41,846 bases of DNA from Gemmatimonadota bacterium (lineage in GTDB: Bacteria; Gemmatimonadota; Gemmatimonadetes; Gemmatimonadales; GWC2-71-9): NCBI GenBank assembly GCA_016794825.1, contig JAEUJH010000182.1:1-41846 (forward strand), written 5' to 3'. The notes under the pieces were generated by a model. That model was not told the origin of the DNA. It saw nothing but the letters and a program-made list of their open reading frames with translations, and did no database searches. Positions within the stretch are counted from its first letter, which is position 1; each line of letters opens with the position of its first letter. This document shows positions 23,384-28,718 of the stretch, piece by piece. The position numbers and the translations under genes were made by a program.

Positions 23384-23768
23384 GGGGTAGGACGGGATGG
23401 TCGCGGACCGGCTTTCGGGCTGGTTCGAGGAAAGTCCGAGCTCCAACGGGTAGACTGCCAGGTAACGCCTGGGCGCCGAAAGGCGACGGACAGGGCCACA
23501 GAAAACACACCGCCTCCGGCGCAAGTCGGCGGTAAGGGTGAAAAGGTGGGGTAAGAGCCCACCGCGCCGCCGGTAACGGTGGTGGCACGGCAACCCCCAG
23601 TCGGAGCAAGGCCAAATAAGCGGCGAGGTGCGGCCCGCACCGACCCCTCCTTCGGGAGTGAGCCGCGGGTAGGCTGCTCGAGGCGACTGGCGACAGTCGT
23701 CCCAGAGAGATGACCATCCGGACCGTTTCGGCGGTCCGAACAGAACTCGGCTTACGGTCCCACCCACC
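23384..23768 (+). ncRNA. rnpB: RNase P RNA, bacterial type A
   Basis: This is the catalytic RNA that cleaves 5' leaders from tRNA precursors. The hallmark GAGGAAAGTCCG is at 23427-23438. Other conserved blocks follow: ACAGAAAACACACCG, GTAAGAGCCCACCG, ACGGCAACC, AGAGAGATGACCATCC and, near the 3' end, ACAGAACTCGGCTTA (23740-23754). The ends are set by P1 pairing: GGGTAGGAC (23385-23393) with GTCCCACCC (23757-23765), one mismatch. Ends are accurate to a few bases. The gene sits between the large kinase and a secreted protein gene, about 5 kb from rnpA, which encodes its protein partner. Confidence 0.96.
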
Positions 23769-23801
23769 CCCTTTCGACGCCTGACGGGCGTTGAAGGGGG
23801 G
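23766..23801 (+). terminator. Hairpin after rnpB
   Basis: CCCCCTTTCGACGCC (23767-23781) pairs with GGGCGTTGAAGGGGG (about 23785-23800), allowing a small internal mismatch, around a short TGAC loop. There is no T-run behind it, so it may work as a 3'-end-protecting or Rho-aided terminator. Confidence 0.55.
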
Positions 23802-25679: not shown

Positions 25680-26792
25680 TCAGTCGAGCAGTCGGAGCGG
25701 CATCACCAGGGTGAGGTAGCTGGCCGGATCGTCCCAGCCAACCGGTTCGCAGGTCGACGCCCGTTCCGGGGTCTTGAAGCTGAGCCGGACCTCGTCGGTC
25801 GGCATGAACTTGAGGACCTCGAGCACGTACGACGCGTTGAAGGCGATTTCCAGCGGATCGCCATCGTACGCCACCGTCATTTCTTCCTGCGCTTCGCCGA
25901 GGTCCGGGGTGGTAACGGACAGCTTGCAGGTTCCGTTGGCAAACGCCATCCGGATCCGGTGGGTCTGGTCGCTGGCCACGATGCTCATCCGCCGAAGAGC
26001 CGCCGAAAGGGCGCCCTTGTCGGCGGTCATGATCTTGTCGTTCTCCCGCGGGATGACCTGCTCGTAGTTCGGATACGGACCCTCGATCAACCGGGTGTAG
26101 ACCTGCGTTCCGGCCGACCGGAACCCGAGGTGGTTATCGCTCCGGGCAATCTCGATCTCGTCCTCGGGTCCGTAGAGGCGGCGAATCTGCTCCAGGGCCT
26201 TCGGGGGGACGATGAGGTCGGCCTGTCCGCCGCCGCCCCCCTTGAGGGGCACATCCATCCTGGCCAGCCGGTGCCCGTTGGTGGCCACCATTCGCATCCG
26301 ATCGCTGCGAAGTTCCCACAGGACACCGTTGAGGATCGGCCGACTTTCCTCGGTGCTGGCGGCAAAGGCCACGTGGCTGATCAGTTTCTGGAGATCCTTG
26401 GCGGCCACCTTCCAGGACCCATCGAACTTGACGGCCGGAAAGGCCGGGAACTCATCGCGGGACAGACCCAGAAGCTTGAACCGCGACCGGCCGCACTCGA
26501 TCTGGACCCGCTGCTCGCCCGATCCGGTGAACCGGATGGCGGCGCTGGGCAGTTCGCGAACGATGTCGACCAGCTTGCGGGCGGGCAGGGTGGTGGCGCC
26601 TTCCTGATCGACCTGAGCCGGGATGATGGTGCTGACGGCAATATCGAGATCGGTACCCGACAGTCGGAGGCCATCCTTGGTGGCCTCGACCAGGATGTTG
26701 GAGAGAACCGGCAGGGTCGTCTTGGATGGCACACTGGCTGCCACGGCTCCAAGACCCTCGTGAAGCTTCTCTCGCGTGATCGTGAACTTCAT
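25680..26792 (-). CDS. dnaN: DNA polymerase III beta subunit (sliding clamp)
   Basis: DnaN forms the ring that tethers polymerase III to DNA and is a landing site for MutS, DNA polymerase I and the initiator-inactivation system. The 370-residue length is normal. Family landmarks are MKFTITREKL at the start, LPVLSNILVEA, ATNGHRLARMD and the C-terminal YLTLVMPLRL, which lines the partner-binding pocket. The ATG at 26790-26792 has GGGAGCG upstream. dnaN follows dnaA on the same strand after a 241-base spacer that looks like the replication origin. The usual next gene, recF, is absent here: the convergent mtgA comes instead. Confidence 0.97.
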   Translation of the reverse strand: MKFTITREKLHEGLGAVAASVPSKTTLPVLSNILVEATKDGLRLSGTDLDIAVSTIIPAQVDQEGATTLPARKLVDIVRELPSAAIRFTGSGEQRVQIECGRSRFKLLGLSRDEFPAFPAVKFDGSWKVAAKDLQKLISHVAFAASTEESRPILNGVLWELRSDRMRMVATNGHRLARMDVPLKGGGGGQADLIVPPKALEQIRRLYGPEDEIEIARSDNHLGFRSAGTQVYTRLIEGPYPNYEQVIPRENDKIMTADKGALSAALRRMSIVASDQTHRIRMAFANGTCKLSVTTPDLGEAQEEMTVAYDGDPLEIAFNASYVLEVLKFMPTDEVRLSFKTPERASTCEPVGWDDPASYLTLVMPLRLLD

Positions 26793-26835
26793 CCGGATAT
26801 CGCTCCCTGGCCAAACTTCGAGTTTTCACCACGGG

Positions 26836-26866
26836 ATATTAGTAAACTTATCCCTGTATAATAAAA
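26836..26866. other. AT-rich putative DNA unwinding element
   Basis: Only 6 of these 31 bases are G or C, in an otherwise high-GC sequence. It abuts the DnaA-trio-like run. It contains TTATCCCTG (26848-26856), which matches the DnaA box TTATCCACA at 6 of 9 positions. Confidence 0.6.
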
Positions 26867-26881
26867 CAGTAGTCGTAGTAG
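26867..26881 (-). repeat. DnaA-trio-like run
   Basis: On the minus strand this reads CTA CTA CGA CTA CTG; the other strand, read 3' to 5', gives GAT GAT GCT GAT GAC. Three of the five triplets match the DnaA-trio exactly and two differ by one base. It lies between a box-like site and the AT-rich segment. Confidence 0.55.
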
Positions 26882-26892
26882 AGTGTCAGGTT

Positions 26893-26901
26893 TGTGGACG
26901 A
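26893..26901 (-). promoter_or_regulatory. DnaA-box-like site beside the trio run
   Basis: TCGTCCACA on the minus strand matches TTATCCACA at 7 of 9 positions, including the full TCCACA core, and points toward the trio run and the AT-rich element. Confidence 0.5.
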
Positions 26902-27004
26902 CCCCAACAACTCCCGTCCCACTCGGCACTTGCTCTCCCGACTCCCCACTCGCCGCGTGTGTACTCTGGGGAAGAGTGGGAAAGTTCACCTCAATTGTCC
27001 CGCC

Positions 27005-27013
27005 CGATCCACA
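27005..27013 (+). promoter_or_regulatory. DnaA-box-like site
   Basis: CGATCCACA on the plus strand keeps ATCCACA of the consensus TTATCCACA, 7 of 9. A second core, CGGTCCACA, lies 20 bases further on at 27025-27033, directly beside the dnaA stop codon. Confidence 0.45.
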
Positions 27014-27033
27014 CCACCAACACACGGTCCACA

Positions 27034-28422
27034 CTACGATGCGGTTAACTCCGCGCGGGCGGAATCGACCCGTTCCCGGAACCCGCGATCGCGCGCGAGT
27101 TGACGTTGGACCTTGTCGACGCTGTGAATGACGGTCGAGTGATCCCGGCCGCCGAAGGCCTGCCCGATCTCGACGAGCTGCATGTTGAGGACCTCGCGGG
27201 CCAGGTACATCGCAATCTGGCGGGGGACCGTCAGACTCTTGATCCGGGCCTTGGAACGGAGTCCTTCCGGCGTGACGCCCCACCGCCGGGCCACGACGTC
27301 CTGGACCTTGTCGATCGACGGCAGGGCCTTGGGTCGCTGCTCCGGGGTCGATTGGCTCGGTCGGATCCGGTCGGCCAGAGCCTCGCGGGCCAGGTCGACG
27401 GAGATCTCCCGATGCCGTAACGACGCGTACAGCAACAACTTGATGATCGACCCCTCGAGCTCCCGGACGTTCGAGTAGACGTGCTCGGCGATGAAGGTGA
27501 GGACCTCATCCGGGATCGTCGTTTCGAGATGGTCCTGCTCCTGCTTCTTCCGGAGGATCGCGATTCGGTGCTCCAAGTCGGGCATGCCGATATCGGCGAC
27601 CATTCCCCACCCGAATCGGCTGACCAGGCGATCCTCCAGGCCAGGCATCTCCTTCGGGGGGCGGTCCGAGGTCAGGACGATCTGCTTCTGCGCCTCGTAC
27701 AACGTGTTGAAGGTGTGAAAGAACTCCTCCTGGGTCGCTTCCTTGCCTTCGAGGAAGTGGACATCGTCCACCAGGAAGAGGTCGACCTCGGTCCGGTACC
27801 GACGCCGCAGGTTGGGCATGGTCCGGCCGTGGATTCCCTCGATTACCTCGTTGATGAAGTGCTCGGCGCCGACATAGACCAGGCGGGTGCCCGGGTTCTT
27901 CCGGATGACGGCGTGGGCGATCGCCTGCATGAGGTGGGTCTTGCCCAGGCCGGTTCCGCCGTAAATGAACAGCGGATTGTAGGTCTTTCCGGGGGCCTCG
28001 GCGACGGCGTAGGCCGCGGCGGCCGCGAGCTCGTTCGACTTGCCGATGACGAACGAATCGAACGTGTACCGCTCATTGAGCGGCAGGGGCGACGGGGTAC
28101 TCCGGACCGGGGCGGCCGCCGGTTCCGGCTGCGACGCCACGAAAAAGTCGATCTGGGGCCGGGCCAAGCGGTCTTCCGGGACCCGGAAGGTGACCTCGGT
28201 GCGCTGGCCAAGGACCTGCTCAGCCAGGCGGGACAGGATCCCGGAGTGCTTGGCCTCGTTCCATTTGATGGCGAACTCGTCGGGGAGCCCCAAAACCAGC
28301 CGACCGTCCTCGATCGCGATGGCCTCGGCTGGCGCAAGCCAAGTATTGACAGCCTGTTCGGGCAGTTCGCGACGGGCCTCGTCGAGGATGCGTTTCCACG
28401 CGTCTTTCGGGGACAACTGCAT
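27034..28422 (-). CDS. dnaA: Chromosomal replication initiator DnaA
   Basis: DnaA binds DnaA boxes, oligomerises with ATP and melts the origin. The 462-residue product has domain I (about 1-85), a Pro/Ala-rich linker (about 95-112) and the AAA+ domain with Walker A GGTGLGKTH (K161) and Walker B LFLVDDVHF. Domain IV carries the signature GGRDHSTVIHSV that contacts the box. The start is the ATG at 28420-28422 with GAGGCG upstream. It is transcribed from a sigma70-type promoter that contains a perfect DnaA box, implying autoregulation. It is followed by the candidate origin and dnaN, and is divergent from rpmH. Confidence 0.98.
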   Translation of the reverse strand: MQLSPKDAWKRILDEARRELPEQAVNTWLAPAEAIAIEDGRLVLGLPDEFAIKWNEAKHSGILSRLAEQVLGQRTEVTFRVPEDRLARPQIDFFVASQPEPAAAPVRSTPSPLPLNERYTFDSFVIGKSNELAAAAAYAVAEAPGKTYNPLFIYGGTGLGKTHLMQAIAHAVIRKNPGTRLVYVGAEHFINEVIEGIHGRTMPNLRRRYRTEVDLFLVDDVHFLEGKEATQEEFFHTFNTLYEAQKQIVLTSDRPPKEMPGLEDRLVSRFGWGMVADIGMPDLEHRIAILRKKQEQDHLETTIPDEVLTFIAEHVYSNVRELEGSIIKLLLYASLRHREISVDLAREALADRIRPSQSTPEQRPKALPSIDKVQDVVARRWGVTPEGLRSKARIKSLTVPRQIAMYLAREVLNMQLVEIGQAFGGRDHSTVIHSVDKVQRQLARDRGFRERVDSARAELTAS

Positions 28423-28464: not shown

Positions 28465-28493
28465 ATCTTACGACCTGGGTGTGGAAAAGTCAA
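28465..28493 (-). promoter_or_regulatory. dnaA promoter
   Basis: On the minus strand TTGACT (28493-28488) and TAAGAT (28470-28465) are separated by exactly 17 bases. Transcription would begin near 28458, about 36 bases before the dnaA ATG. A DnaA box lies within the spacer and touches the -35. Confidence 0.7.
28480..28488 (+). promoter_or_regulatory. Perfect DnaA box inside the dnaA promoter
   Basis: TGTGGAAAA on the plus strand is TTTTCCACA on the minus strand, a full match to TTnTCCACA. It lies between the -35 and -10 of the dnaA promoter, where bound DnaA would block RNA polymerase. A weak second match, TTTTCCAGG, is at 28523-28531. Confidence 0.7.
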
Positions 28494-28556: not shown

Positions 28557-28718
28557 ATGCAACCGACTTATCGCCCGCGGAACCGGAAGCGGGTCAATAA
28601 GCACGGGTTCCGCGCTCGAATGGCGACCCGTTGGGGCCGGGAAACCCTGGCTCGTCGCCGGAAAAAGGGCCGGAAACGGCTGACGTTGACGATCGCCTCG
28701 AAGGACGGGGGTCGCTAA
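28557..28718 (+). CDS. rpmH: Ribosomal protein L34
   Basis: L34 is a small basic protein of the large ribosomal subunit. The 53-residue product has the invariant core: [20 protein letters not shown], then a short link to the Arg/Lys-rich [16 protein letters not shown]. The C-terminal [10 protein letters not shown]-like tail makes it several residues longer than the usual 44-46. The ATG at 28557 has TTGGGG 7 to 12 bases upstream. It is the first gene of the rpmH-rnpA-yidD-yidC-mnmE run. The last 88 bases of rpmH are also read in another frame as the N-terminus of rnpA. Confidence 0.97.

Follow-up and report, generated by a model that had tools for sequence, protein, structure and literature searches.

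A probable DnaA-trio unwinding module of oriC in the dnaA-dnaN spacer of a Gemmatimonadota bacterium

The segment at positions 26836–26901 of the analysed stretch of DNA (the window; 41,846 nt) is very probably the unwinding module, or basal unwinding system (BUS), of an origin oriC located in the spacer between dnaA and dnaN. This kind of system is already known: the DnaA-trio mechanism of unwinding is established in Bacillus subtilis (PMC6669920, PMC8287927, PMC10721633), and BUS modules have been predicted by Pelliciari et al. (2021) in 85% of 2070 bacterial origins (PMC8287927). The anatomy and uniqueness of the present site, the phylum-wide order of its elements, the base-capture residues of DnaA and an evolutionary bias of the trio centres to C are shown in this analysis. 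The spacer contains the following elements.

26793–27033, no strand assigned: dnaA-dnaN intergenic spacer of 241 bp, the proposed oriC
26893–26901, minus strand: DnaA-box-like TCGTCCACA, putative BUS anchor box, 7/9 to TTWTNCACA, with a TCCACA core kept in most relatives
26882–26892, minus strand: spacer AACCTGACACT, 11 nt between the box and the trio array
26867–26881, minus strand: DnaA-trio array CTACTACGACTACTG, read as CTA CTA CGA CTA CTG
26836–26866, minus strand: AT-rich putative unwinding core TTTTATTATACAGGGATAAGTTTACTAATAT, 31 nt, 19.35% GC
26823–26831, plus strand: box-like TTTTCACCA in inverted orientation beyond the AT-rich core; sequence context CCCGTGGTGA(A/T)AA
27005–27013, plus strand: additional DnaA-box-like CGATCCACA within the spacer, in opposite orientation

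The initial annotation had described a minus-strand box, an 11-base spacer, the letters CTA-CTA-CGA-CTA-CTG and 31 bases with 19% GC, a description which proved exact to the base when the sequence was rechecked. The anchor box carries two mismatches to the consensus (up to two being allowed) and lies 11 nt from the trios (up to 16 nt being allowed), and the 31 nt at 19% GC directly follow the array. The plus strand of the array, which is predicted to be bound by DnaA, reads 3'-GAT GAT GCT GAT GAC-5'. The AT-rich core is the most AT-rich stretch of the 41.8-kb window and its sole 31-mer with six or fewer G/C. Beside it, the element CCCGTGGTGA(A/T)AA is common to the genus (six of six genomes; 26823–26831 here, the same place in loci L003–L007) and is possibly an inverted weak DnaA box.

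The closest known system is the BUS of B. subtilis (incC), which consists of DnaA-boxes 6 and 7 plus CTACTATTACTTCTACTA. Both are positioned between dnaA and dnaN and share the order of box, 10–13 nt spacer, trios and AT-rich DNA, the same strand polarity, and the DnaA capture residues including Asn187. In contrast to the perfect anchor box of B. subtilis, the anchor found here is a 7/9 match, the second box is degenerate in the genus, and the third trio has a central C on the bound strand. Likewise unlike B. subtilis, DciA is present (in 16/16 genomes) and no protein with a DnaB_2 domain, the DnaD/DnaB type, was found in the genomes searched. Compared with the predicted BUS modules, the site fits the description of the box, the array and the spacer length, for which a peak at 10–13 bp has been published, whereas the strict run of three NAN trios is interrupted (PMC8287927). 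The main text of that study does not mention Gemmatimonadetes, and a full-text literature search for DnaA-trios together with Gemmatimonadetes returned nothing relevant.

The combined match of box and array is far above chance. A profile of 15 columns, derived from arrays of relatives that do not belong to the genus, gives the site 24.5 bits, while the next-best non-overlapping site of the window reaches 13.9 and has neither a box nor AT-richness. Similar array scores (23.0 and 21.3) exist among 3.56 million positions scanned in other genomes, but these lack AT-richness and a complete box core. The stricter box-plus-array pattern CCACA-N9..13-CTRCKRCKRCTRCTR has a single match in the 5.45-Mb assembly (994 contigs) to which the window belongs, precisely at this site. 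It is matched in 44/102 genomes of the family and, among the 44 matches listed, all except one (G079:C39) adjoin dnaA; for G085 and G095, which gave no dnaA match, this placement was judged from the matched sequence only.

The relatives of DnaA at 71–73% identity are labelled Gemmatimonadetes (L032, L033), and the window belongs to a family of at least 102 genomes, within a taxonomic order that also includes several complete chromosomes. From 180 distinct Gemmatimonadota loci the dnaA-dnaN spacers were extracted, and the order of box, spacer, array and AT-rich DNA was recovered in 177 of them on the basis of array and AT thresholds; as the array score itself served to define the thresholds, this count describes the recovery of a pattern and is no blind test. 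Lack of conservation of this order in relatives had been named in advance as a finding that would speak against an origin, and the opposite was observed. The rise in AT content begins at the array, and the AT-rich stretch keeps the same offset in relatives. A typical relative contains paired box cores, for example GTCCACATTTCCAGACCCT or TTCCACACTTCCACAC, followed by CTACTACTACTACTA and AT-rich DNA. At the position of the 11-nt spacer most of them possess a second, weaker box (e.g. TTTCCAGA or TTCCACA), which is degenerate in the genus of the window. The spacer of the window differs from that of L003, its closest relative, at 46 of 241 positions, just one of which lies between the array start and dnaN.

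The AT-rich stretch is located 44–75 bp upstream of the dnaN start, which is a possible place for a promoter, and it might accordingly serve mainly dnaN expression, the resemblance to box and trios being coincidental. We consider this extremely unlikely: a promoter scan which detects the dnaA promoter finds no sigma-70-like site in the dnaA-dnaN spacer, so that a sigma-70 promoter was rejected there; the conservation across the phylum resides in the box and the trios rather than in promoter hexamers, and the array is almost unique to the dnaA-dnaN location across genomes.

The reading as an unwinding module of oriC also agrees with the genetic surroundings of the site, which lies within a conserved rpmH-dnaA-dnaN neighbourhood.

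27034–28422, minus strand: dnaA (initiator), assigned by Pfam, with base-capture residues mostly equal to those of B. subtilis DnaA in PDB 8BTG
25680–26792, minus strand: dnaN (beta clamp), assigned by Pfam
28557–28718, plus strand: rpmH, read from sequence
28465–28493, minus strand: dnaA promoter TTGACT-17-TAAGAT, with the perfect DnaA box TTTTCCACA (28488–28480) between its hexamers

The genes rpmH, rnpA, yidD, yidC and mnmE, all but the first assigned by Pfam, are oriented opposite to dnaA and dnaN. A gene for class A RNase P RNA is found at 23384–23770 on the plus strand, ca. 2 kb past the far end of dnaN.

Upstream of dnaA, a perfect DnaA box is present within 200 bp in 96 of 118 relatives. 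Together with the perfect TTTTCCACA of the window this could indicate that the rpmH-dnaA spacer is the functional origin and the dnaA-dnaN element a secondary one. Such an assignment appears very unlikely, since the box sits between the −35 and −10 hexamers of a conserved dnaA promoter, where it probably reflects a conserved autoregulation of dnaA, and since the trio array occurs in none of the 118 relatives possessing that upstream region, as opposed to 93% of the matching dnaA-dnaN spacers. Bipartite origins exist in some other bacteria, and a cooperation of the dnaA-promoter box and the dnaA-dnaN module across dnaA would refine, not replace, our main reading. Both elements are conserved and the unwinding spacer contains weak boxes, in line with such a cooperation; nevertheless, dnaA autoregulation suffices as a reason for the promoter box, and several additional boxes are present within the dnaA-dnaN spacer itself. 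We regard a bipartite arrangement as rather unlikely.

The perfect promoter box also bears on the specificity of DnaA. The weak box at the proposed oriC had been taken as a possible sign of a lineage-specific DnaA preference, an idea which we rejected as a perfect TTTTCCACA is conserved in the dnaA promoter. The box sequences rather suggest that DnaA reads an ordinary box here, and that the 7/9 box at oriC is a weak site and not a new specificity.

GC skew, which had been recommended as a check, was analysed in relatives and provides partial agreement with an origin at dnaA. In a complete chromosome of the sister family (G043; 4.637 Mb, dnaA at 101), sampled by 20 stretches of 20 kb, the half means counted from dnaA are +0.022 and −0.014 (t test, p = 0.009), and among all rotations the best split is that at dnaA. 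In a contig of the same genus (G005) the cumulative skew has a local minimum at the dnaA samples and rises thereafter; within the window itself, the skew becomes positive at ca. 28 kb. The skew of G023 is weakly consistent with the dnaA location, but that of a single-contig genome of the same family (G025; 40 samples) is flat, dominated by noise and does not reach a minimum at dnaA. The initial proposal that the spacer is oriC, with unwinding between dnaA and dnaN, is supported by the order in 177/180 spacers and by the skew in two relatives.

The DnaA protein of the window is identical to that of B. subtilis at nine of ten positions checked for base capture and oligomerisation, namely E183, N187, I190, I193, R202, K222, E223, E228 and R264 (B. 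subtilis numbering), and N187, E183, E228 and R264 are invariant in all 180 DnaAs. The only difference is an arginine in place of N196, which in B. subtilis contacts the uncaptured third base of the trio. Most relatives contain in addition separate frames of ca. 600–1000 amino acids with two tandem DnaA-like AAA+ matches and without a match to the DnaA C-terminus (G057:C139, G035:C4, G058:C1:1881544 and many others).

Four of the five trios in the window have a central A on the bound strand. The third has C, which leaves a run of two NAN trios next to the box; if a central C is disallowed, this trio interrupts the series of three NAN trios in a row that a published search demands within 16 nt of a box (PMC8287927). 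Trios without a central adenine had been anticipated in the same study. In B. subtilis, strands separate about as fast with a central C as with A, and C sustains growth and initiation better than G or T do, since Asn187 reads its amino group (PMC10721633). The equivalent residue of the window DnaA is N191. By analogy, the third trio would function as a trio and not as a break, the central C retaining the amino group for N191. The initial annotation had called the middle trio imperfect; the deviating letter stands, whereas its interpretation gives way to an A-to-C centre change of the type that is functional in B. subtilis (PMC10721633).

A preference for this exchange is visible across the phylum. 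The non-T centre letters on the CTA-strand of the 177 arrays are G in 64, C in 28 and A in 8 cases, and the box-proximal trio has a central G in none of them. Parsimony on the DnaA tree yields 24 changes from T to G, 8 from T to C and 1 from T to A at the centres of trios 2–4, which on the bound strand correspond to about 24 A-to-C, 8 A-to-G and 1 A-to-T events; the count comes from one quickly built tree, the homology of trios across lineages is approximate, and mutation may depend on sequence context. At the third base of these trios, transitions predominate (36.5 A to G, against 9 A to T and 1.5 A to C). At four-fold sites of dnaA, T/C exceeds T/G with 91 versus 26 in close pairs and 572 versus 312 in all pairs. 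The bias of the centre changes to C on the bound strand is the reverse of this background ratio (Fisher p = 1.5e-5 against all pairs), and GC pressure cannot explain it, as the GC content gains as much from a T-to-C as from a T-to-G exchange. A similar tendency is seen in arrays from other phyla, whose centres include 11 G, 3 A and 2 C. In three Clostridia-type loci (L074, L075, L083), arrays beside tandem boxes contain CGG CGG, i.e. successive trios with central C on the bound strand.

A second feature concerns the opposite strand. A trio-like motif in reversed orientation (YAGYA) follows 9–30 nt after the array, with a peak at 17–25 nt, in 62% of 176 relatives, compared to 9% in mononucleotide shuffles, 25% in dinucleotide shuffles and ca. 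6% in 49 arrays of other phyla. Examples of the form GTAGTA/CAGCAG, located past the AT-rich core, are found in L018–L023, L221–L229, L300–L320 and others. The motif is absent from the window, the genus of which keeps CCCGTGGTGA beyond the core. A hairpin or cruciform formed by forward and inverted trios was discarded, as pairing with the own downstream region (5.67) exceeds that with permuted partners (5.30) only slightly and is confounded by relatedness; an inverted DnaA box as anchor of the inverted trios likewise found no support, TGTGG being present in just 13 of 177 cases. In B. subtilis, the DnaD recognition element is the complement of the trios, is read by DnaD and serves the second helicase (PMC10201434). 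The inverted motif of the relatives resembles it as a strand-specific single-stranded DNA motif in the unwinding region; it differs in occurring ca. 20 nt downstream, in most relatives and not in the window, and in a phylum in which the search for DnaB_2-domain proteins gave no match. One may speculate that the inverted motif serves the capture of the second strand. Taken together, we tentatively propose, giving it somewhat less than an even chance, that natural selection permits trio centres to change from A mainly to C, never in the box-proximal trio, which would be evolutionary support for the amine-capture rule, and that the mirror-image trio motif carried by most of these origins ca. 20 nt away on the other strand might enable DnaA to take hold of that strand and to load the second helicase in bacteria without DnaD.

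We infer that initiation, melting and helicase loading actually occur here, and envisage the following scenario. DnaA would dock onto the double-stranded box TCGTCCACA, the second box being weaker or missing in the genus. A DnaA oligomer would then be fed from the box onto the adjacent trios of the plus strand, where two bases of each trio would be flipped out and captured by neighbouring protomers. The stretch of 31 AT-rich bp past the trios would melt and provide single strands for helicase loading, presumably via DciA.

The site would thereby mark where the chromosome opens in a phylum for which, as far as literature searches show, origins have not been characterised. The inverted motif of the relatives is a concrete candidate for second-helicase loading where DnaD is missing. 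Moreover, a biochemical result, namely that a central C can replace A, now becomes visible as a pattern in natural sequences; since the central C recurs naturally, such arrays would be split by origin-finding programs which insist on A at the centre.
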